Assembly: GCF_001984175.1 (NCBI RefSeq)
Contig: NZ_MTQP01000069.1
Span: 806,001 to 870,000, forward strand
Length of the DNA stretch: 64,000 nt
From: Saccharothrix sp. ALI-22-I
GTDB taxonomy: Bacteria > Actinomycetota > Actinomycetes > Mycobacteriales > Pseudonocardiaceae
Direction: 5' to 3'
Of the stretch, positions 5,122-21,250 are shown piece after piece. The position numbers and the translations under genes were made by a program. Numbering within the stretch: the stretch's first letter is position 1; each line of letters starts with the position of its first letter. Below the pieces are notes generated by a model. The model did not search any database. It saw only the letters and a program-made list of their open reading frames with translations, and was not told the origin of the DNA.

Positions 5122-5209
5122 GTTCTGAGCGTTGAATTCAGGAGTCCTGAACGTTGGACACGCCTGTTCTGAGCGTTGGACACGCGCGTTCTGGGGGTTG
5201 GACACGCGC
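5122..5209. repeat. four tandem 22-bp repeats (family A, left copy)
   Basis: GTTC/GTCC occurs at 5122, 5144, 5166 and 5188 in exact 22-bp register. The unit begins GTTCTGAACG and ends TTGGACACGCGC; the first unit is the most diverged (TTGAATTC). The array lies between the kinase gene and the 3' end of the bifunctional glycosyltransferase gene. A related array of six units is at 21119-21250, at the 3' end of the polymerase gene. The 22-bp period shifts reading frame at every unit, which argues against coding. Confidence 0.9.
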
Positions 5210-5214
5210 GGGGG

Positions 5215-7257
5215 TCAGGGGGTGGTGAGGGTCAGGAGGTCTTGGGTGCGGGCGTGCCAGGAGTGGGGTTGGACGGAGGTGCGGAGGGTGTGGGCGGGGA
5301 GCAGGGGGCCGGTGGCGAGGGTCTGGCGGATGGCCTCGATGAAGGCGGTGGGGGTCCGGGCGACGCGGACCCGGTCGGTGTAGGCGGCCAGTTCGGCGAA
5401 GTCGGTGCTGACGACGGGGAGGCCGAGGGCCAGGTACTCCTTGAGCTTGATCGGGTTCGAGCGCTTGATCCAGTCGTTGTCCTGCCACGGCATGATCGCC
5501 ACGTCGAACGCCGACCCGTAGGCCGGGATCAGGCTGTACGGGCGGAAGCCCAGCCAGTGCACGTTCGGGTACTTGTCGAACCGCTCCATCGGGTGGGTGG
5601 CGTCACCGATCAGCACCAGTGAGGCCTCCGGCAGCTCGGCGGCCACCTGTTCCAGCAGGTCGAAGTCGACTACGAAGTCGTCGAGCGCCCCGAAGAACCC
5701 GATCCGGGGACCGTCGATCGAGCGCACGTCGTCCGGCCACTCGAACTCCGGCCGCGCGGTGAAGTGGTCAACGTCCACACCGTGGTCGAGGAAGTGGGCA
5801 CGGGTACCGGTCCGCGGCAGCTCCTCGTCCATCAGGGCGTGGCTGACGTACACGACGTGGTCGGCGTGGGCCAGGAGCTGGTTCTCCAGCGCCTCGATGG
5901 AGGCGCGGTCGGCCTCGGGGAAGTCCGAGTGCCGGTCCGACCGGTTGAACACCAGGCTCTGCCGGCGCATCGGGGCGACCACGTCCCACGCGGTGGGGAT
6001 GGTCACCATGATCACCGGCGTCCGCAGGCCGAGCGCACGCGCGACGAGGCGGACCTGGGTGCGGACCAGCACGGCGTTGACCTTGCGCAGGAACGGCGAG
6101 CCGTAGAACGGCAGCGGCAACGGCGACATCACGTAGAAGTCCGGCATCGGCTTGCGCACGAACTTGGCCACGCTGCGCAGCTTGCGCAGGATGCGCCGGG
6201 ACACGTGCGTGCTGTTGCCCCGCGTGGGCATCCGCATGCCGATGCTGTTGACCACCAGCACCTTCCGGTGCGCCGACATCGACCGCATCAGCTGGAAGTC
6301 CGAGTGCGCCCGGTTGTGGTACCACCAGTCCTGCGCGGAGAAGCACACCCAACCGGGCTCGGCGGCCTGTCCGGGACGCGCGGGCCAACGGCGCCACCGC
6401 AGCAGGTCGCCGATGGCCTTGCGGTGCTTGACGCCACGCGGCACGCGCACCAGCTCGTTGAGCAGCACCGCCCACCACATCACGAACGCGGCCAGGCGTC
6501 CGCTGCGCTCCCGGACCATCCGGACCCGGTTCGTCGTGGCCATCGACCACAGCACCGGCGACGTCGACTGCTCACCACCGAAGTGCACGGCGTGCGCACG
6601 CGGCTCGTAGCGGACGGCGTACCCCCGCTTGCCCGCACGCAACATGTACTCGGTCTCCTCCGAGTACAGGAAGTACCGCTCCTCCAGCACGCCGGTCGCC
6701 TCACGCGCCTCACGCGAAATCAGCCACGCCGCACCCGTCGCCCAGTCCGACGTCCCGGCCGTCTCGTACCGGAGGGGATCGACCACCAGCTCACCCAGCG
6801 CGTCGAACCGACCCGCCCGCGTGCCGCCGAGGAGCGCTTCGCCCACCGCGCGCAACGGGTTGGGCGCACGGCGCAACGACAGCTGCGGCGCGCCGTCCGC
6901 CCCGGCCAGCCGGGGCACCGCGATGCCGGTGCCGGGCAACGCCAACGCGGCCCGCAGCAGCGTGATGGCGTCCGGATCGAGCCGGACGTCCGGGTTGAGC
7001 ACCAGCACGTCGCAGTCCGGCGCGGCGGCGAACCCGGCGTTGACGCCCGCGCCGAACCCGTCGTTGGTCGGCCGCGCCACGATCTGCGCGTCCGGCGCGA
7101 CCTGGGCGACGATGTCGAGGGTGTCGTCCGCGGAGGCGTTGTCCACGACCACGATCCGACCGTCCGGGATGGACTGCAACGCGACGGCGATCGACTTCAG
7201 GCAGTCTTCGACGACCTCGGCGCTGTGGTAGGTCACGACGACGACGGCAAGCGGCAC
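5215..7257 (-). CDS. two-domain glycosyltransferase (GT2 fused to GT4-like)
   Basis: A 680-residue protein joining two transferases. Residues 1 to about 270 are a WbbL-like GT2 domain: VVVVTYHSAEVVEDCL, VVVDNASADDT, FGAGVNAGF and the DXD-like region VLVLNPDVRL, then GAAWLISREA. Residues about 320-680 are a GT-B-like domain with the donor-side motif PIKLKEYLALGLPVVSTDFAEL and IGFFGALDDFVVDFDLL. The usual families are about 300 and 370 residues, so this is a true fusion. It probably adds two successive sugars of a surface glycan at the cytoplasmic membrane. The WecG-type gene lies 3 bases upstream in the same operon. The 22-bp repeat array follows the stop codon closely. Confidence 0.85.
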   Translation of the reverse strand: MPLAVVVVTYHSAEVVEDCLKSIAVALQSIPDGRIVVVDNASADDTLDIVAQVAPDAQIVARPTNDGFGAGVNAGFAAAPDCDVLVLNPDVRLDPDAITLLRAALALPGTGIAVPRLAGADGAPQLSLRRAPNPLRAVGEALLGGTRAGRFDALGELVVDPLRYETAGTSDWATGAAWLISREAREATGVLEERYFLYSEETEYMLRAGKRGYAVRYEPRAHAVHFGGEQSTSPVLWSMATTNRVRMVRERSGRLAAFVMWWAVLLNELVRVPRGVKHRKAIGDLLRWRRWPARPGQAAEPGWVCFSAQDWWYHNRAHSDFQLMRSMSAHRKVLVVNSIGMRMPTRGNSTHVSRRILRKLRSVAKFVRKPMPDFYVMSPLPLPFYGSPFLRKVNAVLVRTQVRLVARALGLRTPVIMVTIPTAWDVVAPMRRQSLVFNRSDRHSDFPEADRASIEALENQLLAHADHVVYVSHALMDEELPRTGTRAHFLDHGVDVDHFTARPEFEWPDDVRSIDGPRIGFFGALDDFVVDFDLLEQVAAELPEASLVLIGDATHPMERFDKYPNVHWLGFRPYSLIPAYGSAFDVAIMPWQDNDWIKRSNPIKLKEYLALGLPVVSTDFAELAAYTDRVRVARTPTAFIEAIRQTLATGPLLPAHTLRTSVQPHSWHARTQDLLTLTTP

Positions 7258-7260
7258 TAT

Positions 7261-8070
7261 CTACTCCCCGGTCTGATTGCCGACTCCGTCGGCGGTCGAG
7301 CGACGGAACCGGGTGCGCAGCGCGCCCCCGAGCAGGCGGAACGCGAACGGCAGGTCGTCACGCAGGTAGCGCTTGGCCAGGCGGCGCGGTTCGAGCGCGA
7401 GGCGGTGCAGCCACTCCGCACCCAGCTTCTGCACCGCGCCCGGGGCCCGCCGGAACTCGCCCGCGGCCATCGGGATGCCCGCGCCGCAGCCGAGGAACCA
7501 GGCCTGCGGCAGCTCCGCGCGCAGCAACCCGATCAGGCGTTCCTGCTTGGGGAAACCGAGGCCGACCAGGACCAGGTCCGGTTTGGCCTGCACCACCTTG
7601 GCCACCGCGTCGGCGGTGGCGTCGGCGGAGGAGTCGAAGCCGAACGGCGGCGAGTCCGTGCCCGCGATCCGCAGTCCGGGGTACTTGTCGCGCAGCACGT
7701 CGGCGGCCCTCTCCGGCACGCCGAGGTCACCACCGAGCAGGTAGACCGAGCGGTCTTCGCGCGCGGCGGCTTCGGCGAGGGTGAACACCAGCGACGCGCC
7801 GGTGACCCGTTCGGGCACCGGGACGCCCGCGAGCCTGCCCGCCCACACCACCGGCATGCCGTCGGCGACGACCATTTCGGACTTGGCGACCAGCTCGGCC
7901 AGTTCAGGACGGCGGGTCGCGGCGCGCACGATGTCGACGTTGGCCGTGACGATCGCGCCACCCTCGGCCCGTCGCCAGGCTTCGGTGACGTGCTCGGCGA
8001 CGCCGGACTCGCGGACGGCCCACACATCGACGGCGCCCACGCGGACGCGGGCCAGGGAGATGTCCGGCAT
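7261..8070 (-). CDS. WecG/TagA/CpsF-family glycosyltransferase
   Basis: A 269-residue GT26 enzyme. Family signatures are VTANVDIVRAATRRPEL, VVADGMPVVWAGRLAG, VYLLGG near residue 95, PDLVLVGLGFPKQE and the C-terminal GAEWLHRLALEPRRLAKRYL. Members transfer N-acetylmannosamine or a related uronic/amino sugar to a polyprenyl-linked acceptor, as in teichoic acid linkage-unit or ECA synthesis. The start is taken as ATG 8070, since the frame upstream runs into the divergent promoter. It is followed after 3 bases by the two-domain glycosyltransferase, so both are one operon. Its presence suggests a lipid-linked oligosaccharide with an early ManNAc-type residue. Confidence 0.88.
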   Translation of the reverse strand: MPDISLARVRVGAVDVWAVRESGVAEHVTEAWRRAEGGAIVTANVDIVRAATRRPELAELVAKSEMVVADGMPVVWAGRLAGVPVPERVTGASLVFTLAEAAAREDRSVYLLGGDLGVPERAADVLRDKYPGLRIAGTDSPPFGFDSSADATADAVAKVVQAKPDLVLVGLGFPKQERLIGLLRAELPQAWFLGCGAGIPMAAGEFRRAPGAVQKLGAEWLHRLALEPRRLAKRYLRDDLPFAFRLLGGALRTRFRRSTADGVGNQTGE

Positions 8071-8119
8071 ACCCGCGTCATCGGGTTCGGACCGGTCCCC
8101 GTTACGACGCCCCCGGAAC

Positions 8120-8134
8120 CGGTAACGGTTACCG
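8120..8134. promoter_or_regulatory. operator-like palindrome CGGTAAC-G-GTTACCG
   Basis: A perfect 7+1+7 inverted repeat lies between the divergent WecG-type gene and the MFS gene. A related element with the same CGGTAA/TTACCG half sites is at 9441-9456 before the SnoaL-HxlR unit. A repressor shared by the exporter and the HxlR unit is a reasonable inference. Confidence 0.5.
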
Positions 8135-8155
8135 CACGTGACCGATATCGGGAGC

Positions 8156-9382
8156 ATGTACGTTGCGTCCGTCCGGCCCAGTGAGCGGGTCAGGGGCAGG
8201 GTTCCCGGCACGGTGTTCGCGCTGGGCGCAGTGAGCCTGCTGACCGATGTCTCGGCCGAGATGGTCACCGCGTTCATGCCGGTCTACCTGCTGTTCACGC
8301 TGCACATGGGTTACGCGCAGTTCGGTGTGCTGGACGGTCTGTACACGGGTGCGACGGCGGTGCTGCGACTGGTCGGCGGAGCCGTCTCCGATCGGACGCA
8401 CCGGCACAAGGCCGTCGCCGCGGTCGGTTACGGACTGTCGACGGTGACCAAGTTCATCTTCCCGGTCGTGGGCGCGTCGGCGTTCGGCATCGGCGCGACG
8501 ATGGCGGCCGACCGTGCGGGCAAGGGCCTGCGCACCGCGCCGCGTGACGCGTTGATCTCCCTGGCCACCCCGCCGGACCGGTTGGGCGCGGCGTTCGGCG
8601 TGCACCGGACCATGGACACGGTCGGCGCGCTGCTCGGGCCGTTGGTGACTTTCGTGCTGCTGTACGAGATCGGCATCGTCGCGGGCCCGGTGTTCGTGGT
8701 CAGCGCGTGCTTCGCCGTGGTGGGGCTGATCGTGCTGGTGGCGTTCGTCCGGGAGAATCCGAGGCCGGTGCTGACGGGCCCGCGACCGTCCGTGAAGGCC
8801 GGGTTGGCGTTGCTGCGGCAGGCCGGGTACCGGAGGGTGACGATCGCGTCGGCGGTGCTGGGGTTGGCGACGTTGTCGGACGCGTTCGTGTTCATCCTGG
8901 TGCAGAAGGCGACTGACGCCCCGCTGCACCTGTTGCCTTTGTTGCCGTTGGGCACGGCGTTGGTGTTCCTCGTCGCCGCCACGCCGATCGGACGGCTGGC
9001 CGACCGTGTCGGCCGTTGGCCGGTGTTCCTCGGCGGCCATGTGCTGCTGTTGGCCGTGTACGTGCTGTTCCTAGCCCCCGGCACCGGCTACGTCGGCGTT
9101 GGTTCGGCCCTGTTGCTGCACGGCCTCTTCTACGCCGCGACGGACGGTGTCCTGTCCGCACGGGTGAGCGCCCTGGTGCCGGAGTCGCTGCGCGCGTCGG
9201 GTCTGTCGGTGGTGCAGACGGGCCAGGCACTGGCCCGGCTCGTGTCGTCCGTGGCGTTCGGCTTCCTCCTCCAGTTCGCCGCTTTCGGCACCGCCGTCTA
9301 CGCCGCGATCGCCTCCCTGCTGGTGGCCGTGCTCGTGGCCTGGCGCCTCAACGCACTCGCGGACACCGCTGCCACTGAGTGA
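8156..9382 (+). CDS. major facilitator superfamily transporter
   Basis: A 408-residue MFS protein with about 12 hydrophobic segments. Motif A-like loops are seen in GGAVSDRTHRHK (between TM2 and TM3 of the N-half) and PIGRLADRVGRWP (C-half). The segment GKGLRTAPRDALIS is characteristic of a drug/metabolite exporter subfamily. ATG 8156 is preferred over the in-frame GTG at 8138 because GGGA precedes it and 8138 lies next to the palindrome. It is transcribed away from the glycan genes. The substrate is unknown. The neighbouring HxlR regulator and shared palindromes suggest induction by a toxic small molecule. Confidence 0.85.
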   Translation: MYVASVRPSERVRGRVPGTVFALGAVSLLTDVSAEMVTAFMPVYLLFTLHMGYAQFGVLDGLYTGATAVLRLVGGAVSDRTHRHKAVAAVGYGLSTVTKFIFPVVGASAFGIGATMAADRAGKGLRTAPRDALISLATPPDRLGAAFGVHRTMDTVGALLGPLVTFVLLYEIGIVAGPVFVVSACFAVVGLIVLVAFVRENPRPVLTGPRPSVKAGLALLRQAGYRRVTIASAVLGLATLSDAFVFILVQKATDAPLHLLPLLPLGTALVFLVAATPIGRLADRVGRWPVFLGGHVLLLAVYVLFLAPGTGYVGVGSALLLHGLFYAATDGVLSARVSALVPESLRASGLSVVQTGQALARLVSSVAFGFLLQFAAFGTAVYAAIASLLVAVLVAWRLNALADTAATE

Positions 9383-9431
9383 CCCACGGCCACAGTTCGA
9401 CAGATGTGACATGGGCCACATATGCACGTTA

Positions 9432-9456
9432 GTTACGTTGCGGTAAATGGTTACCG
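9432..9456. promoter_or_regulatory. overlapping inverted repeats before the SnoaL-HxlR unit
   Basis: TTAC-n6-GTAA (9433-9446) overlaps CGGTAA-ATGG-TTACCG (9441-9456). Both are arms of the type often bound by HxlR-family dimers, and the second shares its half sites with the palindrome at 8120-8134. The likely role is autoregulation by the HxlR protein encoded downstream. Confidence 0.45.
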
Positions 9457-9507
9457 ATGGTGAGTATCGGGTTCCACCAGCACGAACTCACCAAGGAGAT
9501 GTTCACA

Positions 9508-9908
9508 GTGGACTCGACCACCACGCTCGCCGTTGCCCGCGAGTACCTCGACGCGGTGTCCGCGAAGGACTTCGCCACGGTCGCCGGCCTGTTCGCCGAG
9601 GGCATCGTGTGGCACCAGCCCGGCGACAACCGGCTCTCCGGCACTCATCGGGGCCGCGCCGCCGTCGAAGGCGTGCTCGGCGCGACGATGACCATCAGCG
9701 CGGGCACGTTCGAGCTCGCGGTGACCGGCGCGCCCATGGTCAACGGTGACGTGGTCGCGGTTCCCGTCCACTTCTCGGCACGGCGCGACGACGTCGAACT
9801 CGCGCAGGACGGCATCGACGTGATGCGGATCGAGGGCGACCGGATCGCGGAGGTCTGGCTCTTCTCCAGCGCCCAGGACGCCGAGGACGCCTTTGGGGCA
9901 CCGACTGA
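9508..9908 (+). CDS. SnoaL/NTF2-like protein with an apparent frameshift near its end
   Basis: A small NTF2-fold protein beginning at GTG 9508 (AAGGAG 9 bases upstream; ATG 9499 is also possible). It reads AREYLDAVSAKDFATVAGLFAEGIVWHQPGDN and ends IAEVWLFSSAQDAEDAF, typical of stress-type SnoaL-like proteins of about 130 residues. In the given sequence no stop follows DAF in frame and the reading continues for over 600 bases through the next gene. Adding one T to the TTT at 9892-9894 would give DAFWGTD and a TGA at 9906-9908, overlapping the next ribosome binding site. So I place the natural end at 9908 and call a one-base lesion or sequencing error. The HxlR gene follows directly. Confidence 0.7.
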
Positions 9909-9913
9909 GGAGA

Positions 9914-10291
9914 ATGTCGGCCATGTTCCAGCACCCGGCGTTCAACATCCTCACCGCGACCTGCCCGTCCCGCACGTCACTGGCCCGCATCGCCAACAAG
10001 TGGACGGCGATGGTGGTGATCGCACTCAGCGACGGCCCGATGCGCTTCGGCGACCTGCGCACCGTGGTCGACGGGATCAGCGGGAAAGTCCTCACCGAGA
10101 CGCTGCGGGATCTGGAACGCGACGGACTCGTCACACGGCACGCGTACGGCGAAATGCCACCCAGGGTCGAATACGAACTGACCACCCTGGGACGCACGCT
10201 GCACACGCCCCTGCAGGCGCTGGGCCACTGGGCCGAGAAACACATCGAAGAGGTGCTCGCAGCACGCGAGACCTACGACGCCCGCGGTTGA
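9914..10291 (+). CDS. HxlR-family winged-helix regulator
   Basis: A 125-residue HxlR protein starting at ATG 9914 (GAGGAG immediately upstream; ATG 9923 has better spacing). It contains the family core: KWTAMVVIALSDGPMRFGDLRTVVDGISGKVLTETLRDLERDGLVTRHAYGEMPPRVEYELTTLG split over the recognition helix and wing. A Cys in TATCPSR near the N-terminus sits where many HxlR members carry a redox-active Cys. It is co-transcribed with the SnoaL gene, whose natural stop would overlap its ribosome binding site, and may bind the repeats at 9432-9456 and 8120-8134. Confidence 0.88.
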   Translation: MSAMFQHPAFNILTATCPSRTSLARIANKWTAMVVIALSDGPMRFGDLRTVVDGISGKVLTETLRDLERDGLVTRHAYGEMPPRVEYELTTLGRTLHTPLQALGHWAEKHIEEVLAARETYDARG

Positions 10292-10303
10292 CCGCGGGCG
10301 TGA

Positions 10304-10341
10304 CCGCGGCCCGTGCACCCCCGAAGGTGCACGGGCCGCGG
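10304..10341. terminator. bidirectional stem-loop terminator
   Basis: A perfect 16-bp inverted repeat (10304-10319 with 10326-10341) has a CCCGAA loop. It lies between the convergent HxlR and YVTN genes and can serve both. Confidence 0.85.
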
Positions 10342-10360
10342 GTTCCGCAGGGGTGCGGGT

Positions 10361-11677
10361 TCAGAGGAGGTGGATCTGACCGTGTGCGGCGGACGGGCCG
10401 TGGGTCTGGTCGCCCGCGTGGCCGGCCGTGTAGCCCAGGAGCAGGGTGGCGGTGCCCACCAGTAGCGGGACGTTGGCGTTGCACTCGGCCTTGCCCGCGG
10501 AGTTCGTGGTGGCGGTGCAGAGGGGGTGGCCCTTGACGGTGCGGAACGAGACCAGCTTGCCCACCACCGGTTTGCCGGTGTGCGATTCGGTGAGCGTGGC
10601 GTCCAGGCCTCGCAGGGTGAAGCCCAGCAGGCGCAACTGGAGTTGGCCGGAGCCGGCGGCCAGCTTGGTCGGGGCGGGCGGGACGGCGTGGATCGCGATG
10701 CCCACCGGGTCCACGCCCACCGGGACCGAACCGACGGTCGACAGCGTTGCGGTGTCCACAATCGACAGTGTTCCGCTGTTGAAGTTCGTCACGTACGCCT
10801 TGGAGCCGTCCGGTGTCAGTGCCACGTTGATCGGCCTGCTGCCGACCGGGATCTGGGCCACGTGGGTCAGTGCGGCGATGTCCACCACGGACAAGGTGTG
10901 GTTCTCGCTGTTGGTGACGTACGCACGCGCGCCGTCCGGCGAGATCGCCACACCGTGCGGGATGAAGCTCACCGGCACCGTGCCGATCACGGTGTTCGAC
11001 GCGGTGGCGACCACGGCCACGTTGTTGGAGAACTTGTTGACCACGACCAGCTTCGCGCCGTCCGGGGTCACCGCCACGGCGGTCGGGGTGTTGCCGGTGG
11101 GGATGTCGGCGATCTTGGTGTTCGTCGTGGTGTCCACCACGGACACCGTGCCGGGGCCGACCACGTCGTGCGCCACGTAGAGCCGCTTGCCGTCCGGCCT
11201 CATCGCGACACCGTCGGCGTTCGCACCGACCGGGATGGTCTCGGTCGTGGTCAACGTCGCCGTGTCGACCACGGACACCGTGCCCGCCAGGTAGTTCGAC
11301 ACGTACACGTGCCCACCCGAGGGCGAGACCGCGACACCGGCGGGTCCGTCGCCGACCGGCACGGCCGCGTCCACGGTGTTGGTCGGCGTGTCGATGATCG
11401 TGAGGGTGTCATCGCGAACGTTCGTCACGTAACCGCGCGTGCCGTCGAACGCGACACCGACCCCGTAGGGCGAGTCACCGTTCGAGTCGATGAGCGTGTT
11501 GGTGACGGCGTTCGTGGCCGTGTCGAGCACCGACACCCCACCGCCGTTGTTCGCGATGTAGCCGAGCACGCGGTCGGGTTGGGCGCCCGCCGCCCCGGAC
11601 GGCACGAGCAGCAGCGCCGCGCCCAACACCACCGCACTGCACACGGCGGGCGCTTTGCGGATCTGTCTGAGCAACAC
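10361..11677 (-). CDS. secreted YVTN beta-propeller repeat protein
   Basis: A 438-residue exported protein. GTG 11677 with GGAGG 6 bases upstream sets the start. A signal peptide (CSAVVLGAALLLVPSGAAGA) is followed by about seven repeats of some 42 residues built on VSVVDTAT..V, IPVG..P.GVA.SPDG..AYVTN, the YVTN/40-residue propeller. The last about 100 residues form a separate beta domain (LQLRLLGFTLRGLDATLTE, LVGTATLLLGYTAGH) resembling an Ig-like fold. Such propellers serve as surface or extracellular scaffolds; no catalytic residues are evident. It ends near the strong bidirectional terminator and appears monocistronic. Confidence 0.82.
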   Translation of the reverse strand: MLLRQIRKAPAVCSAVVLGAALLLVPSGAAGAQPDRVLGYIANNGGGVSVLDTATNAVTNTLIDSNGDSPYGVGVAFDGTRGYVTNVRDDTLTIIDTPTNTVDAAVPVGDGPAGVAVSPSGGHVYVSNYLAGTVSVVDTATLTTTETIPVGANADGVAMRPDGKRLYVAHDVVGPGTVSVVDTTTNTKIADIPTGNTPTAVAVTPDGAKLVVVNKFSNNVAVVATASNTVIGTVPVSFIPHGVAISPDGARAYVTNSENHTLSVVDIAALTHVAQIPVGSRPINVALTPDGSKAYVTNFNSGTLSIVDTATLSTVGSVPVGVDPVGIAIHAVPPAPTKLAAGSGQLQLRLLGFTLRGLDATLTESHTGKPVVGKLVSFRTVKGHPLCTATTNSAGKAECNANVPLLVGTATLLLGYTAGHAGDQTHGPSAAHGQIHLL

Positions 11678-11782
11678 GATCGGCCTCCGGTGGGTTCGAG
11701 TCCCGCACTGGCCCAATCGCCGTACACCGCCCAGCTGTTAGCAGTCGTGGGGGCGGAAAGCCGTAGCCGGCCGCGAAACCGC

Positions 11783-13932: not shown

Positions 13933-14013
13933 GGAACCCCTTCCCGTATGTCCCGTACATCGGGATCGGAGCCTTGCCGTTAACGATCCGCGTTCGCGCA
14001 CGATGTGTAGAGA

Positions 14014-15063
14014 GTGACTGAGCCTCCGGCACGACCAACGGTCGACGTCGTCATCCCCTGCTACAACTACGCCCGGTTCCTGCGCGCTTGCGTGCGGAGC
14101 GTGCTCGACCAGCCCGGCGTCGACGTGCGGGTGCTGATCATCGACGACACGTCGAGTGACGAGACGCCCGAGGTCATGGCCGAACTGGTCGAGGACCCGC
14201 GGGTCGAGGGCCGCAGGCACGAGGTCAACCAGGGCCACATCGCCACCTACAACGAGGGCCTGCTGGAGTGGGCCAAGGCCGACTACACCGTACTGCTGTC
14301 CGCGGACGACCTGTTGGCGCCGGGCGCGCTCGCCCGTGCGGCCGAGGTGTTCGAGGCTCATCCGGGTGTCGGCATGGTCTACGGACGTGTTGTTTATTAC
14401 ACCGATCACGACAATTTGCCGTCCGTGATCACTCCCCCGCCCGGCCGCACGGTGTGGTCCGGTGTGGACTGGATCGAGGCGCGCTGCCGCACCGGGCAGA
14501 ACGTGCTGTCCTCGCCCGAGGCCGTGGTGCGCACGTCCGTGCAGCAGCAAGTGGGCGGCTACCGGCCGGACCTGCCGCACGCGGGCGATCTGGAGATGTG
14601 GATGCGCATCGCCGCGGTGTCCGACATCGGCTACGTGCGCGGCAAGCCCGCCGCGTACTACCGGGTGCACCAGCAGAGCATGATGCGCACCCGGTTCTCG
14701 TCGTTGTTCGCCGATCTGGAACAGCGCCACGCCGTGTTCGAGCGGTTCTTCGCCGAGCACCCCGACCTGCCGCCGGGGCTGCGGGCGCTGGCCGACCGGT
14801 CGATCGCCAAGGACGCGTTGTGGCGGGCGGTGCGCGCCTACGACCGGGACAAGCTGGCCGAGATCCCGGTGGACGAGCTGGTGACCTTCGCCCGGCGCGT
14901 CTACCCCGGCACCGAGCGACTGCCCGAGTACCGGGCGCTGCGGCGGCGGCGGGCGTTGGGCCCGAAGGTGTGCAGCCGCACGCAGCTGTTCGTCGGCAGC
15001 CACCTGGCCAAGCGCGGCGCCGGCCTGGTGGGCAAGCAGGTCTGGAAGTGGCGCGGCCAGTGA
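14014..15063 (+). CDS. GT2-family glycosyltransferase
   Basis: A 349-residue family 2 enzyme. The GT-A fold is visible: VDVVIPCYNYARFLRACVRSVL, LIIDDTSSDETPEV, NQGHIATYNEGLLEW and the nucleotide/metal site VLLSADDLLAPGAL (about 91-104), then GDLEMWMRIA as the acceptor-side acid motif near residue 192. Start GTG 14014. Its TGA overlaps the GTG of the flippase gene (GTGA), so it leads a three-gene coupled operon: GT2, flippase, GT4-like. The sugar specificity is not predictable from sequence alone. Confidence 0.88.
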   Translation: MTEPPARPTVDVVIPCYNYARFLRACVRSVLDQPGVDVRVLIIDDTSSDETPEVMAELVEDPRVEGRRHEVNQGHIATYNEGLLEWAKADYTVLLSADDLLAPGALARAAEVFEAHPGVGMVYGRVVYYTDHDNLPSVITPPPGRTVWSGVDWIEARCRTGQNVLSSPEAVVRTSVQQQVGGYRPDLPHAGDLEMWMRIAAVSDIGYVRGKPAAYYRVHQQSMMRTRFSSLFADLEQRHAVFERFFAEHPDLPPGLRALADRSIAKDALWRAVRAYDRDKLAEIPVDELVTFARRVYPGTERLPEYRALRRRRALGPKVCSRTQLFVGSHLAKRGAGLVGKQVWKWRGQ

Positions 15064-16523
15064 CCGCCGAGGTCGAGCAGCCCGAATCCGCGCGCCCCGG
15101 ACTGGAGCGCAAGGTCACCTCGGCGATCCGCTGGAGTGCGGTCAACAGCCTGGTGCAGCGGCTGAGCCAGGTGGGTGTGGGCGTCCTGCTCGCCTGGCTC
15201 ATCGCGCCCGAGCAGTTCGGCGTGTTCGCGGTCGCGCTCGTGGTGCTCAACATCGTGATGAGCGTCAGCGAGATGGGCGTCAGCGTGGCGCTGGTGCGAA
15301 CCGACAAGCCGGTCGCGGAACTCGCGCCGACGGTGACGACGCTGTCCATCGCGTCCGGTGCCCTGCTCGCGGGGCTTTGCGTGATCGGCGCGCCGTGGTT
15401 CGCGTCGGCGATGGACACGCCGCAGGCCACCGGCGTGATCCAGCTGATGTCGCTGTCGCTGGTGATCGCGGGCGCGTCGGCGGTGCCGGGTGCGCTGTTG
15501 CAGCGGGAGTTCCGGCAGGACCACAAGTTCGTCGCGGACACATCGGCGTTCGTCATCGGCACGTCCGTGGTGGTGGTGCTGGCGGTGCTGGGGTTCGGCG
15601 CGTGGAGCCTGGCGTGGTCGCGGATCGCGACCAACCTGGTGGCCGCCGTGGTGATGTTCGCCTACACCAAGCAGCGCTACCGGCCCGGGTTCGACGCGGT
15701 CCAGGCGCGGGGGCTGCTGGCGTTCGGGCTGCCGTTGGCGGGCGCGAGCCTGCTGGTGTTCGGGGTGCTGAACGTCGACTACATCATCGTCGGCAGTGTG
15801 CTGGGGACCGTGCCGCTGGGGTTCTACCTGCTGGCGTTCAACCTGGCGAACTGGCCCGTAGGTGCTTTCTCGCAGCCGGTGCGCAGCGTGTCGCTGGCAG
15901 CGTTTTCACAGGTCAGGGATGATCCGGAGCTGTTCGCCCGGACGTTCGCGCGTGCGCTGCGGCTACTCGCGCTGGTGACCGTGCCGGCGTGCGTGCTGCT
16001 GGCGGCGTTCGCCGATCCGCTGGTGCGGACCGTCTACGGCGAGCGGTGGGCGCCGGCCGCGGAGGCGTTGGCGTTGCTGGTGCTGCTGGGCGCGCTGCGG
16101 GTGGCGTTGGAGCTGGGGTACGACTACCTGGCCAGCGCCGGGCGGTCGCGGGCCATCCTGGTGATCCACCTGGTGTGGCTGGTCGCGCTTGTGCCGCTGC
16201 TGGCGTTGGGCGCACACGTGGACGGCATCCGGGGTGTGGCGGCGGCGCAGAGCGTGGTCGTGCTCCTGGTGATCGTGCCCGCGTATCTGATCGCGTTCCG
16301 GCCTTACGGGCTTCGGGCGCGGGTGCTCGGTGCGGCTGTCGCACGGCCCGCGTTCGGCGGGTTGGTGATGGTCGCGGTGGCGTTGGGCGTGCAGTCGGTG
16401 ATCGAGGGCGCTCTGTGGCGGCTGCTGGTGGGTGGCGCGTTGGCGTCGCTGACGTACGCGGTCGTCGTGTTCCCCCTGCGCCACGAGGTGCTGGGTCTGC
16501 TGCGTCGAAGGGGTAGCGAGTGA
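15060..16523 (+). CDS. Wzx-like oligosaccharide flippase (MOP superfamily)
   Basis: A 487-residue membrane protein with about 12-14 hydrophobic segments. The N-terminus KVTSAIRWSAVNSLVQRLSQVGVGVLLAWLIAPEQFGVFAVALVV is the classic start of polysaccharide exporters, followed by LQREFRQDHKF and a central VDYIIVGSVLGTVPLGFYLLAFNLANWP. It should flip the undecaprenyl-linked repeat unit across the membrane, ahead of the Wzy-like polymerase at 19.8-21.1 kb. GTG 15060 overlaps the upstream stop, and its own stop overlaps the start of the next glycosyltransferase, both by 4 bases. Confidence 0.88.
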   Translation: MTAEVEQPESARPGLERKVTSAIRWSAVNSLVQRLSQVGVGVLLAWLIAPEQFGVFAVALVVLNIVMSVSEMGVSVALVRTDKPVAELAPTVTTLSIASGALLAGLCVIGAPWFASAMDTPQATGVIQLMSLSLVIAGASAVPGALLQREFRQDHKFVADTSAFVIGTSVVVVLAVLGFGAWSLAWSRIATNLVAAVVMFAYTKQRYRPGFDAVQARGLLAFGLPLAGASLLVFGVLNVDYIIVGSVLGTVPLGFYLLAFNLANWPVGAFSQPVRSVSLAAFSQVRDDPELFARTFARALRLLALVTVPACVLLAAFADPLVRTVYGERWAPAAEALALLVLLGALRVALELGYDYLASAGRSRAILVIHLVWLVALVPLLALGAHVDGIRGVAAAQSVVVLLVIVPAYLIAFRPYGLRARVLGAAVARPAFGGLVMVAVALGVQSVIEGALWRLLVGGALASLTYAVVVFPLRHEVLGLLRRRGSE

Positions 16524-17737
16524 GGGTCGTCCGGCAGTTGCAGCGGCGTGCGCACCAGGTCTCGCGCATCGTGCGCTCGCAGGGTGTGCGGCAGCTCGGG
16601 GCCCGTGCGCTGGGCAGCGCGGCACGGCGGTTCGGGGCGGACGCCGAGGTGTTCCCGGTGCGCCTGGAGGACGTGCGTGCGGCGGACATCGGTGTTCGGC
16701 GGCCGGTCGTCGTGCCGCCTCTTCCGGCCGACGGGCGGCTGACCGTCAACTGGGTCAGCACGCCGCCGTCACCCGGTTCCGGCGGGCACACCACGATGTT
16801 CCGGCTCATCGAGCACCTGCAATCGCTCGGCCACAACTGCCGGCTCTACCTGTACGACGTGTACGGCAGCCGTGCGGCGGATCACGAGCCGGTGATCCGG
16901 TCGGCGTTCCCCGGCTTCCGCGGCTCGGTGCACGATGTGCTGGACGGCATGGCCGACGCGCACGCCGTGTTCGCCACCGCGTGGATGACGGCTTACCCGG
17001 CGTTCAACGACCCGTGCGCGGGCAAGCGGTTCTACCTCGTGCAGGACTACGAGCCGTGGTTCTTCCCGGTCGGCGGGCTGTCCGCGTTGGCGGAGAACAC
17101 CTACCGGATGGGCTTCCACGGCTTCACCGCCGGCCGTTACCTGGCCGAGAAGGTGCGGGCCGACGCGGGCATGGCGGCCGACTTCTTCGACTTCGGCTGC
17201 GACGCCGACCGCTACCACCTGCGCAACGGTGTGCGGCGGGACGGCGTGGTGTTCTACGCGCGCCGGCTGGCGCCGCGCCGGGCGATCGAGATCGGACTGC
17301 TGGCGCTGGAGATCTTCGCCGAACAGCATCCGGACGTCGCCATCCACACGTACGGCGAGAAGATCGGCACCCTGGGCCCCCGGCACATCGACCACGGCCT
17401 GGTCTCCCCCGACCGGCTCAACGACATCTACAACCAGTGCTACGCCGGCCTCACCCTGTCGATGACCAACGTCTCGCTCGTACCGCACGAGATGCTCGCC
17501 GCAGGCTGCCTGCCGGTCGTCAACGACGCCGTGCACAACCGCGTCGTGCTGGACAACGACCACGTCCGCTATGCCCCCGCCACCCCGCACGACCTGGCCC
17601 GTGCACTGTCCGAAGTGGTCACACTGCCGGACTTCGGTGCGGTCGCCCAGGCCGCGTCCGCCTCTGTGTCGAGCCGCTCCTGGGACGCGGCCGGACACGA
17701 GCTGGAGAAGGTGCTCAGGCGGGAACTGCTGGTGTGA
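16520..17737 (+). CDS. GT4/WsaF-like glycosyltransferase
   Basis: A 405-residue GT-B-type transferase starting at GTG 16520. The N-terminal domain has VNWVSTPPSPGSGGHTTMFRLIEHL, and FYLVQDYEPWFFPVG is a signature also seen in WsaF-like rhamnosyltransferases. The C-terminal donor domain has VVFYARRLAPRRAIEIGLLALE, HGLVSPDRLNDIYNQCYAGLTLSMTNVSLVPHEMLAAGCLPVVND, the equivalent of the GT4 EX7E region. Rhamnose transfer is suggested but not proven. It is the last gene of the GT2-flippase-GT4 operon and converges with the membrane-anchored propeller gene over 20 bases. Confidence 0.85.
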   Translation: MRVVRQLQRRAHQVSRIVRSQGVRQLGARALGSAARRFGADAEVFPVRLEDVRAADIGVRRPVVVPPLPADGRLTVNWVSTPPSPGSGGHTTMFRLIEHLQSLGHNCRLYLYDVYGSRAADHEPVIRSAFPGFRGSVHDVLDGMADAHAVFATAWMTAYPAFNDPCAGKRFYLVQDYEPWFFPVGGLSALAENTYRMGFHGFTAGRYLAEKVRADAGMAADFFDFGCDADRYHLRNGVRRDGVVFYARRLAPRRAIEIGLLALEIFAEQHPDVAIHTYGEKIGTLGPRHIDHGLVSPDRLNDIYNQCYAGLTLSMTNVSLVPHEMLAAGCLPVVNDAVHNRVVLDNDHVRYAPATPHDLARALSEVVTLPDFGAVAQAASASVSSRSWDAAGHELEKVLRRELLV

Positions 17738-17757
17738 TCGGGCGGTGCGGGGACCGC

Positions 17758-18717
17758 TCAGATCGGGGACGGCGAGTCGGCGTCGGGGATGAGGATCACG
17801 GCGGCGGACGAGCCGTCGGCGGGGACGACGTGGATCGAGGCGAGCTTGGCGTCCTTGGGCACGGCGGCGAACGCGAGTCGTTCGTCGTCCAGCCAGGTGG
17901 CCTGGTCGTCCACGCCCGCGGTGCCGGGGAGCCGGCGTTCCTCGCCGGTCTTCAGGTCCAGCACGGCCAGCTCCCACGGGCCGAGCCGTCCGATGCGCTT
18001 CTTGTAGGCGACCTTCGTGCCGTCCGGCGACAACGACGGGCACTCGGCGTCACGGCGCAGCGACTCCAGGCGACGGTCCACCAGATCGCCCTTCACCAGC
18101 CAGGTGTAGCCGCCCGAGGCGAGGGTCGCGTAGAACGTGCGGTCGTCGTCGGCCACGGTCAGGCCCCAGTAGTTCATGTCCTGAGCGGTGTGGAGCTTGC
18201 CCTCCACCATCGCGGTGAAGCCCTCCAGGGACTCCACGGCCTCGCCGGTCCGCACGTCCAGGAACCCGGTGCGGGTGGAGAACCCGCCGGGCACCAGGTA
18301 GGAATCGCCGCTGACGAAGGACGTCCAGCTGACCACCTGCCCCGAGGCCGACACCTTCGCCCGGCTGGGCACACCGGGCAGCGGCACGGTCCGCACCGCG
18401 GCGCCGTCCCGGGACACCTCGGCGGCGTACGTCGGGCCCGGCCCGGCCAACCGCAGGCACACCGTCGTCCCGCCGGCCCGGTACACCCGCTGGCACGTCA
18501 TCGGGGTGGCGCTGCGGGCGCCGGGATCGGCCAGGCGCACCTGCTCCACCCGGCCGCGACCGTCGGCCAGGGCCACGAACATCAGGTCCCCGTCGACCGT
18601 GGTCACCGCCACGGGTGAGGTCTCGCGCACGACCGACGTCACATACACCACCGCGGCCGCGACGACCAGTACGATGGCCGCGACGGCGAGCGTGACGCGC
18701 CGGGAGCCCAAGTCCAT
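17758..18717 (-). CDS. membrane-anchored TolB/WD40-like propeller protein
   Basis: A 319-residue protein with one N-terminal hydrophobic anchor (VTLAVAAIVLVVAAAVVYVTSVV) and an extracytoplasmic part built of beta-propeller-like repeats such as LSPDGTKVAYKKRIGRLGPWELAVLDLKTGEERRLPGTAG, which contains TolB-type SPDG motifs. ATG 18717 is preceded by AGGTGG; GTG 18732 is also possible. It lies inside the polysaccharide locus, divergent from the Wzz-like gene over about 95 bases. A scaffold or sensor role in polymer assembly is possible but unsupported by catalytic motifs. Confidence 0.75.
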   Translation of the reverse strand: MDLGSRRVTLAVAAIVLVVAAAVVYVTSVVRETSPVAVTTVDGDLMFVALADGRGRVEQVRLADPGARSATPMTCQRVYRAGGTTVCLRLAGPGPTYAAEVSRDGAAVRTVPLPGVPSRAKVSASGQVVSWTSFVSGDSYLVPGGFSTRTGFLDVRTGEAVESLEGFTAMVEGKLHTAQDMNYWGLTVADDDRTFYATLASGGYTWLVKGDLVDRRLESLRRDAECPSLSPDGTKVAYKKRIGRLGPWELAVLDLKTGEERRLPGTAGVDDQATWLDDERLAFAAVPKDAKLASIHVVPADGSSAAVILIPDADSPSPI

Positions 18718-18811
18718 CACCACCTGTAACACCTAGGCGCGAGTCGGCCGATTTCAAGAGTAACAACAGCTAGTGCGCCCGCATGCAGGGTGAACGTGGA
18801 TCGGGGAGCGG

Positions 18812-19765
18812 ATGGACTTCTGGGGCGCCGTGCGGACGCTGCGCAGGCGGTGGTACATCGCCCTGCCGTCGGCGATCCTGGCTGTCGCCGTGGCCGCCGG
18901 TGTGTTCCTCTCGATCCCGACGCGCTACCAGTCCTCGGGGGTCATGGTGCTCACCTCCCCCGCGGCCGGTGGCACGTTCTCGGAGAACGTCTCGCCGGAC
19001 GAGGCGGTGCGGGTCAACCCGCTGCTGGCGTTCGACGGCAGCCTGTCGACCACCTCGCAGATCCTGGCGCAGATCCTGGCCGATCCGAAGACCCGCAAGG
19101 AGTCGCTGGGCATCGTCAAGGACTCACCGGACAACTTCACCGCGGCCGGCGGCGGCCAGGCCGGCCCGTTCCTGTTCGTGACGGGCGACAGCAACACGCC
19201 GGAAGCGGCCGAGCGGATGGTCTCCACGGTGATGGAGTTCGCCGCCAAGGAGCTGGACAAGCAGCAGACCACGCTGAAGGCGCCGGCGTCGACGTTCATC
19301 ACCTCGCAGGTGATCGTGAACCCGACCGCGGCCGAGGCGCAGATCGGCGGCAAGGTCCGGTACGCGGGCGCGGCGTTCGTGCTGCTGATGTTGTTGACGA
19401 CGGCGGCCACGTTCGGCGGCGACAGCATCCTGAACCACCTGCGCCGCCGCCGTGAGGCGCGGGAGCGCCAGGCCGCGGAGGCCGCGGACCACCCGGATGA
19501 CGCCGCCGTGACGCCGCCACAGGCCGCCGCGGGCACTCCGGTGAAGCCCGAGGCTCCGAAACCACCGCCACAGGCCGCTCCACACCCTCCGACACACGTT
19601 TCGCCGCAGTCCAACGGCATGCCGCGCCGCCCGCCCGGCCCGCCGGTGCGCCGCCCGCAGCCGACGGCCAGCGAGCAGACGGTCAAGATCGCCGCTCCCG
19701 GGGCGCGCAACGCCCCCGGTAAACCGGGGGCTCCGGCGTGGCCGACCAACGAAGACAAACCCTGA
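18812..19765 (+). CDS. Wzz-like chain-length/co-polymerase protein
   Basis: A 317-residue protein with the Wzz topology. TM1 (ALPSAILAVAVAAGVFLSIP) follows a short cytosolic N-terminus MDFWGAVRTLRRRWY. A periplasmic-equivalent domain includes TRYQSSGVMVLTSP, and TM2 is at about 187-210 (RYAGAAFVLLMLLTTAATF). The last about 100 residues are Pro/Ala-rich and have neither a Walker A site nor a Tyr cluster, so it is a co-polymerase without its own BY-kinase. Next comes the Wzy-like gene, starting 3 bases or less away, which fits joint control of polymer length. A 9-bp stem-loop lies in its last codons. Confidence 0.85.
   Translation: MDFWGAVRTLRRRWYIALPSAILAVAVAAGVFLSIPTRYQSSGVMVLTSPAAGGTFSENVSPDEAVRVNPLLAFDGSLSTTSQILAQILADPKTRKESLGIVKDSPDNFTAAGGGQAGPFLFVTGDSNTPEAAERMVSTVMEFAAKELDKQQTTLKAPASTFITSQVIVNPTAAEAQIGGKVRYAGAAFVLLMLLTTAATFGGDSILNHLRRRREARERQAAEAADHPDDAAVTPPQAAAGTPVKPEAPKPPPQAAPHPPTHVSPQSNGMPRRPPGPPVRRPQPTASEQTVKIAAPGARNAPGKPGAPAWPTNEDKP
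19712..19731 (+). promoter_or_regulatory. perfect 9-bp hairpin inside the 3' end of the Wzz-like gene
   Basis: GCCCCCGGT (19712-19720) and ACCGGGGGC (19723-19731) form a near-closed palindrome just before the possible starts of the polymerase gene (19738 and 19768). It could lower expression of the polymerase relative to the co-polymerase. It also encodes APGKPGA, so codon choice alone may explain it. Confidence 0.3.
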
Positions 19766-19767
19766 CC

Positions 19768-21102
19768 GTGTCCGAGCAGTTCCTGCAGGACAGCCCCGTG
19801 CGCCAACGGACGGACGGCGCCACTCTCGTGTGCCTGTTACTGCTGGCACTGCTGATCATCCCGGCCCGGCTGGTGCTGTCGTTCGTGCCCATGACGCTGC
19901 CGCCCGCGTTGGTGGTGGCGCTGCTGCTGGGGGTGCTGTGGCTGTCCGGGCAGATGGTGGACACGGTCGGGATGAGCAAGGGGCGCAACGTCGTGCGCAC
20001 CGCCGTGGCGCTGTACCTGGCGTCGCAGCTGGCGACCTACGGCGTGGCGACGCGGCGTTGGCTGCCGACCGATGAGCTGACCGTGGCGGACAGCAGCATC
20101 ATCCGGATCATGTCGATGATCGCGGTCGCGGTGTTCGCGTGCGACGCCATCCGCAGCAAGGAACGGCTGGACCGGGTGCTCAAGCTGCTCTTGGGCTGTT
20201 CGGCGGTGATCGCGTTCGTGGGGCTGGTGCAGTTCGGGCTCGGCGTCGACCTGGCCGGTTACGTGTCGCTGCCGGGGCTGCGCACGCAGGACAACGGGTA
20301 CTCGGCGATGGAGGCCCGGTCGATCTTCCGCCGGCCGACCGGGACCACGAACCACCCCATCGAGTTCGGCCTGGTGTGCGCGATGGCCGTGCCGCTGGGG
20401 GCGCACTACGTGTTCAAGGCGCGGGACGACGGCACGCCGTACGTGCGCTGGCTGGTGTGCCTGGCGCTGGTCGGCCTGGGCTCGATGACCGCGTTGTCGC
20501 GGACCGCGCTGGTCGGTGTGGCGGTGGCGGCGGTGATCATGGTGGTCACGTTGCCGAAGCGGCGCAAGATCACCACTCTGGGGGTGGGCGGCGGGTTCTT
20601 CCTGGGCGCGAGCCTGGTGGTGCCCGGTCTGTTCGGCACCATTCGCGGCATGTTCTCCAACATCGAGGACGACCCGAGCGTGAAGGCGCGTACGGCGGAC
20701 TACGAGGCGGCGGCGGAGCAGATCGACCTGAACCCGTTGCTGGGTCGCGGCTTCGGCACCTACCTGCCGACGAAGTACACGATCCTGGACAACCAGTTCC
20801 TGCTCACCCTGATCGAGAACGGCTACCTCGGCCTGTTCGCGTTGATCGGCATGTTCCTCGCGGCCGCGTTCGCGACGATCCGAGTGCGGATGATCAGCCA
20901 GGACGAGCAACTGCGCAGCCTGGCAAGCGCCCTGCTCGCGGCCGTCCTGGCGGGCGGCATCGGCTCGATCACCTTCGACCTGCTCGGCTTCAGCGTAGCC
21001 ACCGGCCTGGTGTTCATCATGATCGGCATGAGCGGCGCCCTACTACGCGCCGCCCAACAGGAACGCAAGACCACACCCACACCCGAGGTCCAGGGCGCCT
21101 GA
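19768..21102 (+). CDS. O-antigen polymerase/ligase-like membrane protein (Wzy/WaaL type)
   Basis: A 444-residue polytopic protein with about 11 hydrophobic segments. The Wzy_C-like part is visible as TGTTNHPIEFGLVCAMAVPLG, ALSRTALVGVAVAAVIMV and, in the large outer loop, NPLLGRGFGTYLP with DNQFLLTLIENGYLGLFALIGMFLA, which is typical of O-antigen ligases/polymerases. It should polymerise flipped repeat units or join them to an acceptor outside the membrane. I chose GTG 19768, directly after the Wzz-like stop; GTG 19738 overlapping that gene is possible. Its stop lies at the start of the 22-bp repeat array. Confidence 0.85.
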   Translation: MSEQFLQDSPVRQRTDGATLVCLLLLALLIIPARLVLSFVPMTLPPALVVALLLGVLWLSGQMVDTVGMSKGRNVVRTAVALYLASQLATYGVATRRWLPTDELTVADSSIIRIMSMIAVAVFACDAIRSKERLDRVLKLLLGCSAVIAFVGLVQFGLGVDLAGYVSLPGLRTQDNGYSAMEARSIFRRPTGTTNHPIEFGLVCAMAVPLGAHYVFKARDDGTPYVRWLVCLALVGLGSMTALSRTALVGVAVAAVIMVVTLPKRRKITTLGVGGGFFLGASLVVPGLFGTIRGMFSNIEDDPSVKARTADYEAAAEQIDLNPLLGRGFGTYLPTKYTILDNQFLLTLIENGYLGLFALIGMFLAAAFATIRVRMISQDEQLRSLASALLAAVLAGGIGSITFDLLGFSVATGLVFIMIGMSGALLRAAQQERKTTPTPEVQGA

Positions 21103-21118
21103 ACGGCCCTGGTCGCAC

Positions 21119-21250
21119 GTTCCGAGCGTTGAACTCACGGGTCCTGGACGTTCGACTCTCGCGTTCTGAAGGTTCAACTCTCGCGTTCTGAACGTTGGAC
21201 ACGCCTGTTCTGAACGTTGGACACGCGCGTTCTGAACGTTGGACACGCGA
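21119..21250. repeat. six tandem 22-bp repeats (family A, right copy)
   Basis: Units start at 21119, 21141, 21163, 21185, 21207 and 21229 in exact 22-bp register. The last three are nearly identical (begin GTTCTGAACG, end TTGGACACGC plus one variable base and a C or T). The first two or three are diverged (TTGAACTC, TTCGACTC), which suggests growth or homogenisation from the right. A weaker trace (TGAACG at 21100) covers the polymerase stop codon. Each unit holds the self-complementary AACGTT. The same family is at 5122-5209. Confidence 0.92.

Follow-up and report, generated by a model that had tools for sequence, protein, structure and literature searches.

The window analysed here, a stretch of 64,000 nucleotides from Saccharothrix sp. 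ALI-22-I, contains two arrays of a 22-bp tandem repeat that lie next to genes of a polysaccharide locus (Table 1). TRF reports a period of 22 for both, at 5118-5210 (4.2 copies, 74% matches, score 95) and at 21114-21249 (6.2 copies, 78% matches, score 139). Scanning with a unit matrix derived from the genome identifies exactly ten units, all on the + strand, starting at 5122, 5144, 5166 and 5188, and at 21119, 21141, 21163, 21185, 21207 and 21229. No other unit is present in the window, and the reversed window, scanned as a control, contains none. These are exactly the four plus six units in strict 22-bp register that had been described in the initial annotation, and the distances to the neighbouring stop codons agree with its placement of the arrays behind the 3' ends of genes. 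The hexamer AACGTT, which it ascribed to every unit, is present in only four of the ten. A common unit start, GTTCTGAACG, and a common end, TTGGACACGC, apply to some units, but the heads and tails are of several discrete types. With at most one mismatch, GTTCTGAACG occurs 13 times in the window on both strands, compared with 3.2 expected. Array 2, which has a single orientation, is followed by an inverted repeat of the ordinary, terminator-like hairpin kind.

Table 1. Repeat arrays and adjacent features in the window
Feature	Position	Strand	Remarks
Array 1, four 22-bp units	5122..5209	+	Single orientation; unit matrix and TRF; first unit of 'inner' type (GAGCGTTGAATTC), last of 'outer' type (CTGGGGGTTGGACACGCG), adjoining the stop codon
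Glycosyltransferase families 2 and 1 gene	5215..7257	-	Stop codon 5 bp from array 1
Wzy_C/O-antigen-ligase type gene	19768..21102	+	Ends 16 bp before array 2; longer reading frame from 19738
Array 2, six 22-bp units	21119..21250	+	Single orientation; unit matrix and TRF; first unit of 'inner' type (GAGCGTTGAACTC), last three of GTTCTGAACGTTGGACACGC type
Terminator-like G+C-rich inverted repeat	21254..21281		11/12 pairs, 4-base loop; by eye
Hexapeptide transferase repeats gene	21296..22216	-	Stop 45 bp past array 2; shorter called start 21859

A dispersed family at gene ends

A scan of the 10.3-Mb genome returned 109 exact copies of an 18-mer and 230 matches to a degenerate motif, with none in the reversed controls. 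In 70 stretches of this genome (577 kb in total), picked for containing the motif, we find 596 units, of which 582 are intergenic (reversed control, 0). The family is thus dispersed over the genome at gene ends, which refutes the possibility that only the two window arrays exist. The unit has near-invariant positions G10, T11, A15, C16 and C18. Units are stacked head to tail into arms of 1-10, mostly 3-5, and same-strand neighbours are spaced by exactly 22 bp in 437 of 442 cases. Many arms progress from an 'inner' type unit to an 'outer' type unit adjoining the stop codon. Some Saccharothrix stop codons fall inside a repeat unit. A single orientation is seen in 37 of 90 sampled clusters, and both orientations in 53. 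The junctions between facing arms (n=40) measure 32-34 bp (22 cases), 43-44 bp (7), 54-55 bp (9), 88 bp (1) and 60 bp (1), so that 39 deviate by at most 1 bp from a multiple of 11; back-to-back junctions are 18-20 bp in 21 of 24.

For the 87 clusters with both neighbours called, 46 gaps are convergent, 37 tandem and 4 divergent, as against 72, 149 and 92 among all gaps of at least 60 bp in the same stretches (n=313, array-bearing gaps included). A placement at 3' ends, which the initial annotation had left to be checked, is borne out: most clusters lie in convergent or tandem gaps, and divergent gaps are avoided. Of 57 arrays in tandem gaps, 46 start no more than 20 bp past the upstream stop codon, and 9 end no more than 20 bp short of the next start. 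A lock of array orientation to transcription is not supported (single arrays in tandem gaps, 17 versus 10, p = 0.25).

A plasmid or phage origin was rejected, since a 12-unit array, the one tested, has no match among 72,556 records of plasmids or 50,697 of phages. Separately, one motif copy each was noted on three viral contigs. A likeness of GTTSRAC to the tRNA T-arm or to integron attC, seen by eye, was discounted, since the invariant columns disagree with it. An Rfam search at gathering score, covering the window and loci L065, L076 and L140, gave no match.

Shared sites, species-specific units and palindromes

The motif is carried by 14 of 25 Saccharothrix genomes. Scanning with the degenerate motif covered Pseudonocardiaceae, and 24 genomes from other families in the order contain no exact copy of the 18-mer. 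Compared with the copy number in the window's genome, the exact 18-mer is present in only 0-1 copies in each of 24 congeners. The tail TGGACAC is similarly restricted, occurring in 307 of 596 units in the window's genome, in 0 of 160 and 4 of 134 units in genomes G015 and G018, respectively, and in 1 of 127 units in eight stretches from other carriers. Array sites, in contrast, recur across species: 30 of 80 array records from other species, some of them counted twice due to overlapping loci, have a flanking protein that matches the flank of a sampled array in the window's genome. For 20 orthologous array pairs, unit likeness is 0.735 between different sites within the window's genome, and across species 0.708 at the same site and 0.700 at different sites (values without formal test). 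The unit number at one orthologous site differs among species, and some carriers lack an array at single sites, as G003 and G008 do in one gap and G015 and G002 in a second; therefore, no array is indispensable at those sites. Filled and empty orthologous gaps were also viewed for target-site duplications, and diverge too much to display one.

Shared sites that differ in unit number and consensus imply that units are gained and lost in tandem and, in our reading, also exchanged between sites, which supports the recombination proposed in the initial annotation. Slippage alone is insufficient to produce a consensus common to many sites in one species; this needs ectopic exchange or selection. 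Against this shifting consensus, the five near-invariant positions are at 95-100% in three species, a result that is favoured by the choice of units by score on these same positions.

In two close relatives from another genus, the motif is found in palindromes of ~125 bp (21 elements), with a unit period of 21 bp. The arms are paired at 0.990, compared with 0.957 when arms are re-dealt, and show 32 double changes versus 7.1 +/- 2.5 after shuffling; neither value is reached by any of 2000 shuffles. The flanks past the units pair as well (0.825 versus 0.606). Self-templated repair of the inverted repeat, rather than selection, could be the source of these compensatory changes.

Folding and relation to known repeats

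Relative to mononucleotide-shuffled sequence, inverted arrays fold with a mean of -49.0 kcal/mol (49 convergent gaps), single arrays with -12.0 kcal/mol (28 gaps) and array-free gaps with -11.3 kcal/mol (39 gaps). By eye, the internal dyads of the unit consensus are all short (GTTC.GAAC, and AACGTT in 249 of 596 units), and a long stem is out of reach for single-orientation arrays. Regarding the palindromes or cruciforms envisaged for the repeats, the inverted arrays support their formation and the relatives in the other genus do so strongly, whereas both window arrays, being of single orientation, have no self-fold-back. In Saccharothrix, little covariation is seen between the arms of inverted arrays: one of four unit pairs exceeds all 1000 shuffles in the window's genome, none of four in G015, and one of three in a small pooled set (n = 5, one region counted twice), while the innermost pair in the window's genome is slightly less alike than shuffled pairs. 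A conserved hairpin at the inner arm end shows no clear enrichment: in the window's genome a score of at least 20 is obtained on the inner side of 14 of 147 arms and on the outer side of 23 of 147, and for 29 of 420 shuffled 50-mers.

Convergent gaps contain other strong hairpins in 8 of 51 cases if the arrays are inverted, in 16 of 29 if they are single and in 30 of 40 if no array is present; in tandem gaps the counts are 2 of 58 with arrays versus 87 of 278 without. The apparent replacement of terminators by arrays is in convergent gaps largely explained by scarce free space. When free space is matched (40-110 nt), the deficit in convergent gaps is gone (inverted 7/13, single 13/14, none 17/22; arrays versus none p = 1, inverted alone p = 0.26), and in matched tandem gaps it is marginal (1/28 with arrays versus 25/130, p = 0.049).

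REP repeats are the best-known dispersed bacterial gene-end repeats, and the common hypothesis is that a RAYT transposase copies them. As described in the main text of PMC3733652, REP/BIME elements of the GTAG and CGTC families are dispersed and intergenic, mainly in convergent and tandem gaps and in convergent gaps usually no more than 20 bp from a 3' end; they occur as single copies, inverted pairs or clusters, with sub-types that expand species by species, and the CGTC group lacks a dedicated transposase. That text has no mention of Actinosynnema, Frankia, Amycolatopsis or words beginning with Saccharo. As for REP/BIME, the Saccharothrix repeats are dispersed, high-copy and extragenic, avoid divergent gaps and lie near 3' ends. 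Unlike the 20-40 bp REP stem-loop unit, the 22-bp unit does not look like a stem-loop on its own, strong folding requires both orientations, and the units form strict tandem stacks that include inner and outer types. Neither a GTAG nor a CGTC tag is present at the unit end in a position matrix of the 596 units. The Y1 transposase domain PF01797 does not track the family, being found in 3 of 14 carriers (G000, G013, G015) and 2 of 11 non-carriers (G019, G023), and RAYT-driven spread was rejected on this phyletic pattern.

The elements of the other genus, ~125-bp fold-backs near stop codons, resemble the 100-200 bp palindromes ERIC, YPAL/RU-2 and NEMIS/Correia as these are outlined in PMC2229807. 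YPAL targets span or adjoin dyad symmetry according to the same source, which is matched by the complementary flanks of our palindromes. Unlike these fold-backs (PMC2229807), the arms consist of 21-22-bp tandem units in variable number, and the Saccharothrix forms are arrays, of which the window's two and the other single-orientation clusters lack the second arm. A CRISPR array is different in that the Saccharothrix units abut and have no unique spacers. Mycobacterial MIRU/VNTR loci are actinobacterial intergenic tandem arrays of unstable copy number; the Saccharothrix arrays share this form, but the MIRU/VNTR units are longer and without inverted pairs. No paper describing the 22-bp family was found in the open-licence PMC literature. 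We read it as a new family, comparable to REP/BIME but with another unit and without RAYT, and the arrays look like an actinobacterial counterpart of known gene-end repeats.

Interpretation

With the scales close to even, we take the arrays to be dispersed, lineage-specific intergenic repeats of gene ends, REP/BIME-like but RAYT-less, with turnover by slippage and recombination and with inverted arms that probably provide a 3' stem-loop. The family may descend from a fold-back element like the palindromes of the other genus. Two facing arms would form a stem-loop at the 3' end of the transcript, for termination or 3'-end protection of one or both genes, a function that we deduce from sequence. 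Single arms may be half-elements that rely on another terminator or none. Inside Saccharothrix itself, the terminator reading is weak.

A possible, less probable explanation is that the tandem repeats are functionless, and that gene ends are the sole harmless place for insertion and slippage; neutral conversion would then act on the units, and a fold-back ancestor would account for the inverted pairs. Such tolerance predicts the avoidance of promoter-containing divergent gaps, and agrees with the variable unit number, the empty sites and the sparse arm covariation. Unrelated short tandem repeats, seen by eye, also follow the stop codon in the same orthologous gap of non-carriers (G004, G009, G010 and S. 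coeruleofusca), and another follows the pyruvate kinase gene in G067, so tandem repeats are seemingly gained recurrently at gene ends. Neutrality is less easily reconciled with sites kept across species, with the five near-invariant positions (subject to the selection of units noted above), or with a species-specific consensus across sites, as slippage explains likeness within an array only.

We regard it as rather unlikely that the units serve as phased sites bound by a putative sequence-specific protein, which would cap transcription as a roadblock or insulator between adjacent genes, the species consensus tracking the protein. The initial annotation had listed a nucleoid-protein site among its options. 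The strict 22-bp period corresponds to about two helical turns, and the phasing of facing junctions, the near-invariant GT...AC.C core, the consensus common to many sites and the presence of both orientations would all suit such a protein, which is itself hypothetical. However, the 43-44 and 54-55 bp junctions may simply contain a unit that escapes recognition, with or without the usual 11-bp centre. The back-to-back junctions and the 13-bp facing junctions in G015 and G018 are not multiples of 11, and the period in the other genus is 21 bp; a shared consensus is also obtainable by ectopic conversion alone. That the two arrays are recombination or domain borders of the 16-kb polysaccharide block is most improbable, since they bracket it as coordinates and nothing beyond this spacing speaks for the boundary function first proposed, while they are just two among many sites of a genome-wide family (90 clusters in the sampled stretches) and both follow the ordinary gene-end rule.

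For annotators, the repeat family accounts for some odd Saccharothrix gene ends, and its palindromic form in the other genus offers a handle on the ancestry of the arrays. Many sites are fixed between species while the unit sequence has shifted jointly, without a RAYT to explain the shift. Whether this shared drift comes from 100-bp arrays converting one another ectopically or from units that evolve together with a reader protein is a question that can be tested with the species already sequenced. More speculatively, and in our view improbably, the repeats could be a gene-end code of phased 22-bp words, with distinct inner, middle and outer kinds, that a dedicated trans-acting factor reads and whose vocabulary shifts genome-wide as it co-evolves with the factor. 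If true, this would be a sequence-specific gene-end system of bacteria, serving insulation or termination, whose DNA words take the place of hairpin terminators or add to them.

Unit structure and placement at gene ends

The two arrays of a 22-bp unit that the initial annotation placed in the polysaccharide locus are recovered with the same extent and period by TRF and by direct reading (see table), and a matrix derived from the genome picks out these 10 units and no others across the 64-kb window, with 0 when the window is reversed. The motif AACGTT, claimed for every unit, is present in 4 of the 10. A scan of the whole genome, as the annotation proposed, finds many sites and not two arrays only: the 18-mer GTTCTGAACGTTGGACAC occurs 109 times in 10.3 Mb (57 on the + and 52 on the - strand; 0 in the reversed control), and the degenerate core GTYCTGARCGTTSRACWC 230 times. 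From 70 merged stretches (577 kb, picked for holding matches, the window among them), an iterated matrix retrieved 596 units, with none in the reversed sequence at equal score. The spacing is exactly 22 bp in 437 of 442 same-strand neighbour pairs, and 21, 23, 44 or 45 bp in the remainder. G10, T11, A15, C16 and C18 are conserved at 97–100% in the window's genome and at ≥95% in the carrier genomes G015 and G018, while the remaining positions fall into linked types, e.g., with tails GGACACGCGC, CGACTCTCGC, CAACTCGGGT and GAACTCGGGG.

Almost all units are intergenic (582 of 596), the other 14 lying inside genes called by our home-made gene caller. Units are arranged in tandem arms, each of one orientation, and arms also form inverted pairs; of 90 clusters (arrays at one site), 37 hold a single orientation and 53 both. 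The arrays are placed at gene ends: where both neighbours were called (87 clusters), 46 gaps are convergent, 37 tandem and 4 divergent, compared with 72, 149 and 92 among all 313 gaps ≥60 bp of these stretches, those with arrays included. Both window arrays conform to the earlier description of arrays following 3' ends, array 1 adjoining a stop codon and array 2 lying between convergent genes; a terminator-like hairpin of the ordinary kind adjoins array 2. Arrays in tandem gaps (pooled from the window's genome, G015, G018 and eight other stretches) lie at a median of 10 bp from the upstream stop, with 46 of 57 no more than 20 bp away, and at a median of 64 bp from the next start. Inner and outer unit types can be told apart along an arm, and where the inner side is turned toward the gene, the stop codon occupies unit positions 5–7 (cTGAacg) in 19 of 66 cases, so that the stop is supplied by the repeat itself.

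Coordinates of the two window arrays and of further features observed
Feature	Location	Description
Array 1	window 5122-5209	ends 5 bp from stop of glycosyltransferase gene, - strand
Array 2	window 21119-21250	flanked by convergent genes of the Wzy_C and hexapeptide-transferase types
Unit-like segment	window 21097-21118	GCCTGAACGG, holds stop of + gene before array 2; resembles decayed unit, one base off register
Two other tandem repeats	window 37875-37915 and 48041-48104	periods 12 and 15/30; without family units
Two Y1 transposase genes	G000:C52:16101-16466 and G000:C51:107701-108051	IS200/IS605-type; window's genome
Facing arms	L207 12061-12532	S. coeruleofusca; two arms of related unit TACCTGAGCGTTCGACTCGCGG, ~400 bp of other sequence between
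Tandem repeats	L205 17386-17533 and 15187-15276	S. tamanrassetensis, non-carrier; 49-bp tandem triplicate and 15-bp tandem repeat
Palindromic element	L294 4700-4934	genome G080; after it an N and half of the element repeated, probably where scaffolds were joined

Distribution and species-specific units in Saccharothrix

The degenerate core is present in 14 of 25 genomes of the genus (the carriers), at 4 to 230 copies each. In a ten-protein tree of 24 taxa, the 14 carriers all lie on one side of a branch supported at 1.000, with nine non-carriers and S. coeruleofusca on the other; the placement of G021 is weakly supported (0.151). Behind the same gene S. coeruleofusca carries a unit related to that of the family, TACCTGAGCGTTCGACTCGCGG, that would escape the pattern, and a zero pattern count therefore need not equal absence of the family. 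In the orthologous gap (4+,5-) of a synteny block, behind the same stop codon, unrelated short tandem repeats were seen by eye in the non-carrier stretches L274 (G004), L265 (G009), L271 (G010) and L207 (S. coeruleofusca).

Unit number differs between species at one site. Behind the gene of a 685-aa protein, eight carriers have a gap of 89–168 bp holding 3–6 units, with the inner unit close to the upstream stop; at this gap G008 has a split array (1 + 3 units, about 0.9 kb between), in G002 and G015 the stop codons overlap and take the place of an array, and G007, G021 and G024 have no unit. Because G015 sits among array-bearing species in the tree, its empty site is probably a loss. For 30 of 80 array records, drawn from seven other genomes with some overlap, a protein next to the array has its match at the flank of an array sampled in the window's genome. 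The consensus is nevertheless species-specific: of the 596 units in the window's genome, 307 have TGGACAC as their tail, against 0 of 160 in G015, 4 of 134 in G018, and 1 of 127 when eight stretches from other carriers are taken together. Unit likeness, compared without a formal test on 20 array pairs orthologous at both flanks (several sharing an array), is 0.735 between different sites of the window's genome, 0.708 at the same site across two species, hardly less (0.700) at different sites across species, and 0.697 at different sites within other species (pooled). Judged from these values, homogenisation of units is clear within the window's genome, whereas the same measure reveals none in the other species when pooled.

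Three one-contig genomes (G015, G022 and G003) were compared with 100000 uniform draws each. From origin to terminus, the quartiles hold 15/18/8/3 (44 clusters), 22/21/13/4 (60) and 7/4/5/1 (17) sites, and the observed mean was reached by 14, 6 and 5506 draws, respectively; the thinning toward the terminus is thus significant in G015 and G022 and not in the third genome with its 17 clusters. Such thinning fits old core-genome sites, and less a recent arrival in accessory DNA.

Repeats of the family in other genera

Across the family Pseudonocardiaceae, 18 of 390 genomes contain the degenerate core: the 14 Saccharothrix, G080 and G065 of one other genus (76 and 11 copies), G102 of another (44 copies), and G373 with a single match. 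G102 keeps the 22-bp period, and of its eight sampled clusters six have a single orientation. In G067 (stretch L352), a relative from the genus of G080 and G065, the 13-bp repeat GGGCGGCGTGATC forms a long run behind the pyruvate kinase stop codon.

G080 and G065 have a 21-bp period, and their elements are near-perfect palindromes, often ≤25 bp from stop codons, with arms of mostly two units (one or three in some) and a centre of mostly 35–37 nt. For the 21 elements whose two arms are complete and equal, the values for paired cells (0.990 vs 0.957 with arms re-dealt) and for double changes (32 vs 7.1 ± 2.5) were each reached by 0 of 2000 shuffles, and the flanks outside the units also pair (0.825 vs 0.606, 12 columns). 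The two genomes are very close (pyruvate kinase 100%). Since 14 congeners have no unit in the orthologous gap, the family is patchy.

Possible origin, role and relation to known repeats

Units would be exchanged between sites, the family may have originated in a fold-back element, and inverted arrays may act as 3' stem-loops. A stem-loop role at gene ends is the reading we rank first, at about even odds. Inverted arrays have folds far more stable than shuffled sequence, and another strong hairpin is rare in gaps with arrays (tandem gaps, 2 of 58 vs 87 of 278 without; convergent gaps, 8 of 51 where the arrays are inverted vs 30 of 40 without), which argues for such a role. With free space matched, however, the hairpin deficit is absent in convergent gaps and reaches only p = 0.049 in tandem gaps; arm covariation in Saccharothrix is hardly seen, and single-orientation arrays, the window's two included, are unable to fold back.

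A less probable explanation, which we hold as tentative, is that the arrays are neutral repeats arising by slippage at gene ends, in line with the unrelated tandem repeats that non-carriers show, by eye, at the same gene ends. Recognition of the units by a putative protein would account for an invariant core, for facing arms set apart in steps of 11 bp (39 of 40 junctions) and for the shared drift of the consensus, but nothing so far points to such a protein, and we consider it unlikely.

No Rfam family matches the window or the stretches L065, L076 and L140 at the gathering score, and no paper on this repeat family was found among open-licence PMC papers. The likeness to REP/BIME elements lies in the gene-end placement and the species-wise expansion of sub-types, which in REP/BIME also proceeds species by species according to excerpts of PMC3733652. 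Unlike these elements, the Saccharothrix unit forms no stem-loop by itself and carries no REP tags, and the family has no link to Y1 transposase. Palindromes of the YPAL or ERIC type, as described in excerpts of PMC2229807, resemble the form found in the genus of G080 and G065. We place the family among the gene-end repeats as a new form of that kind, outside both REP and ERIC.
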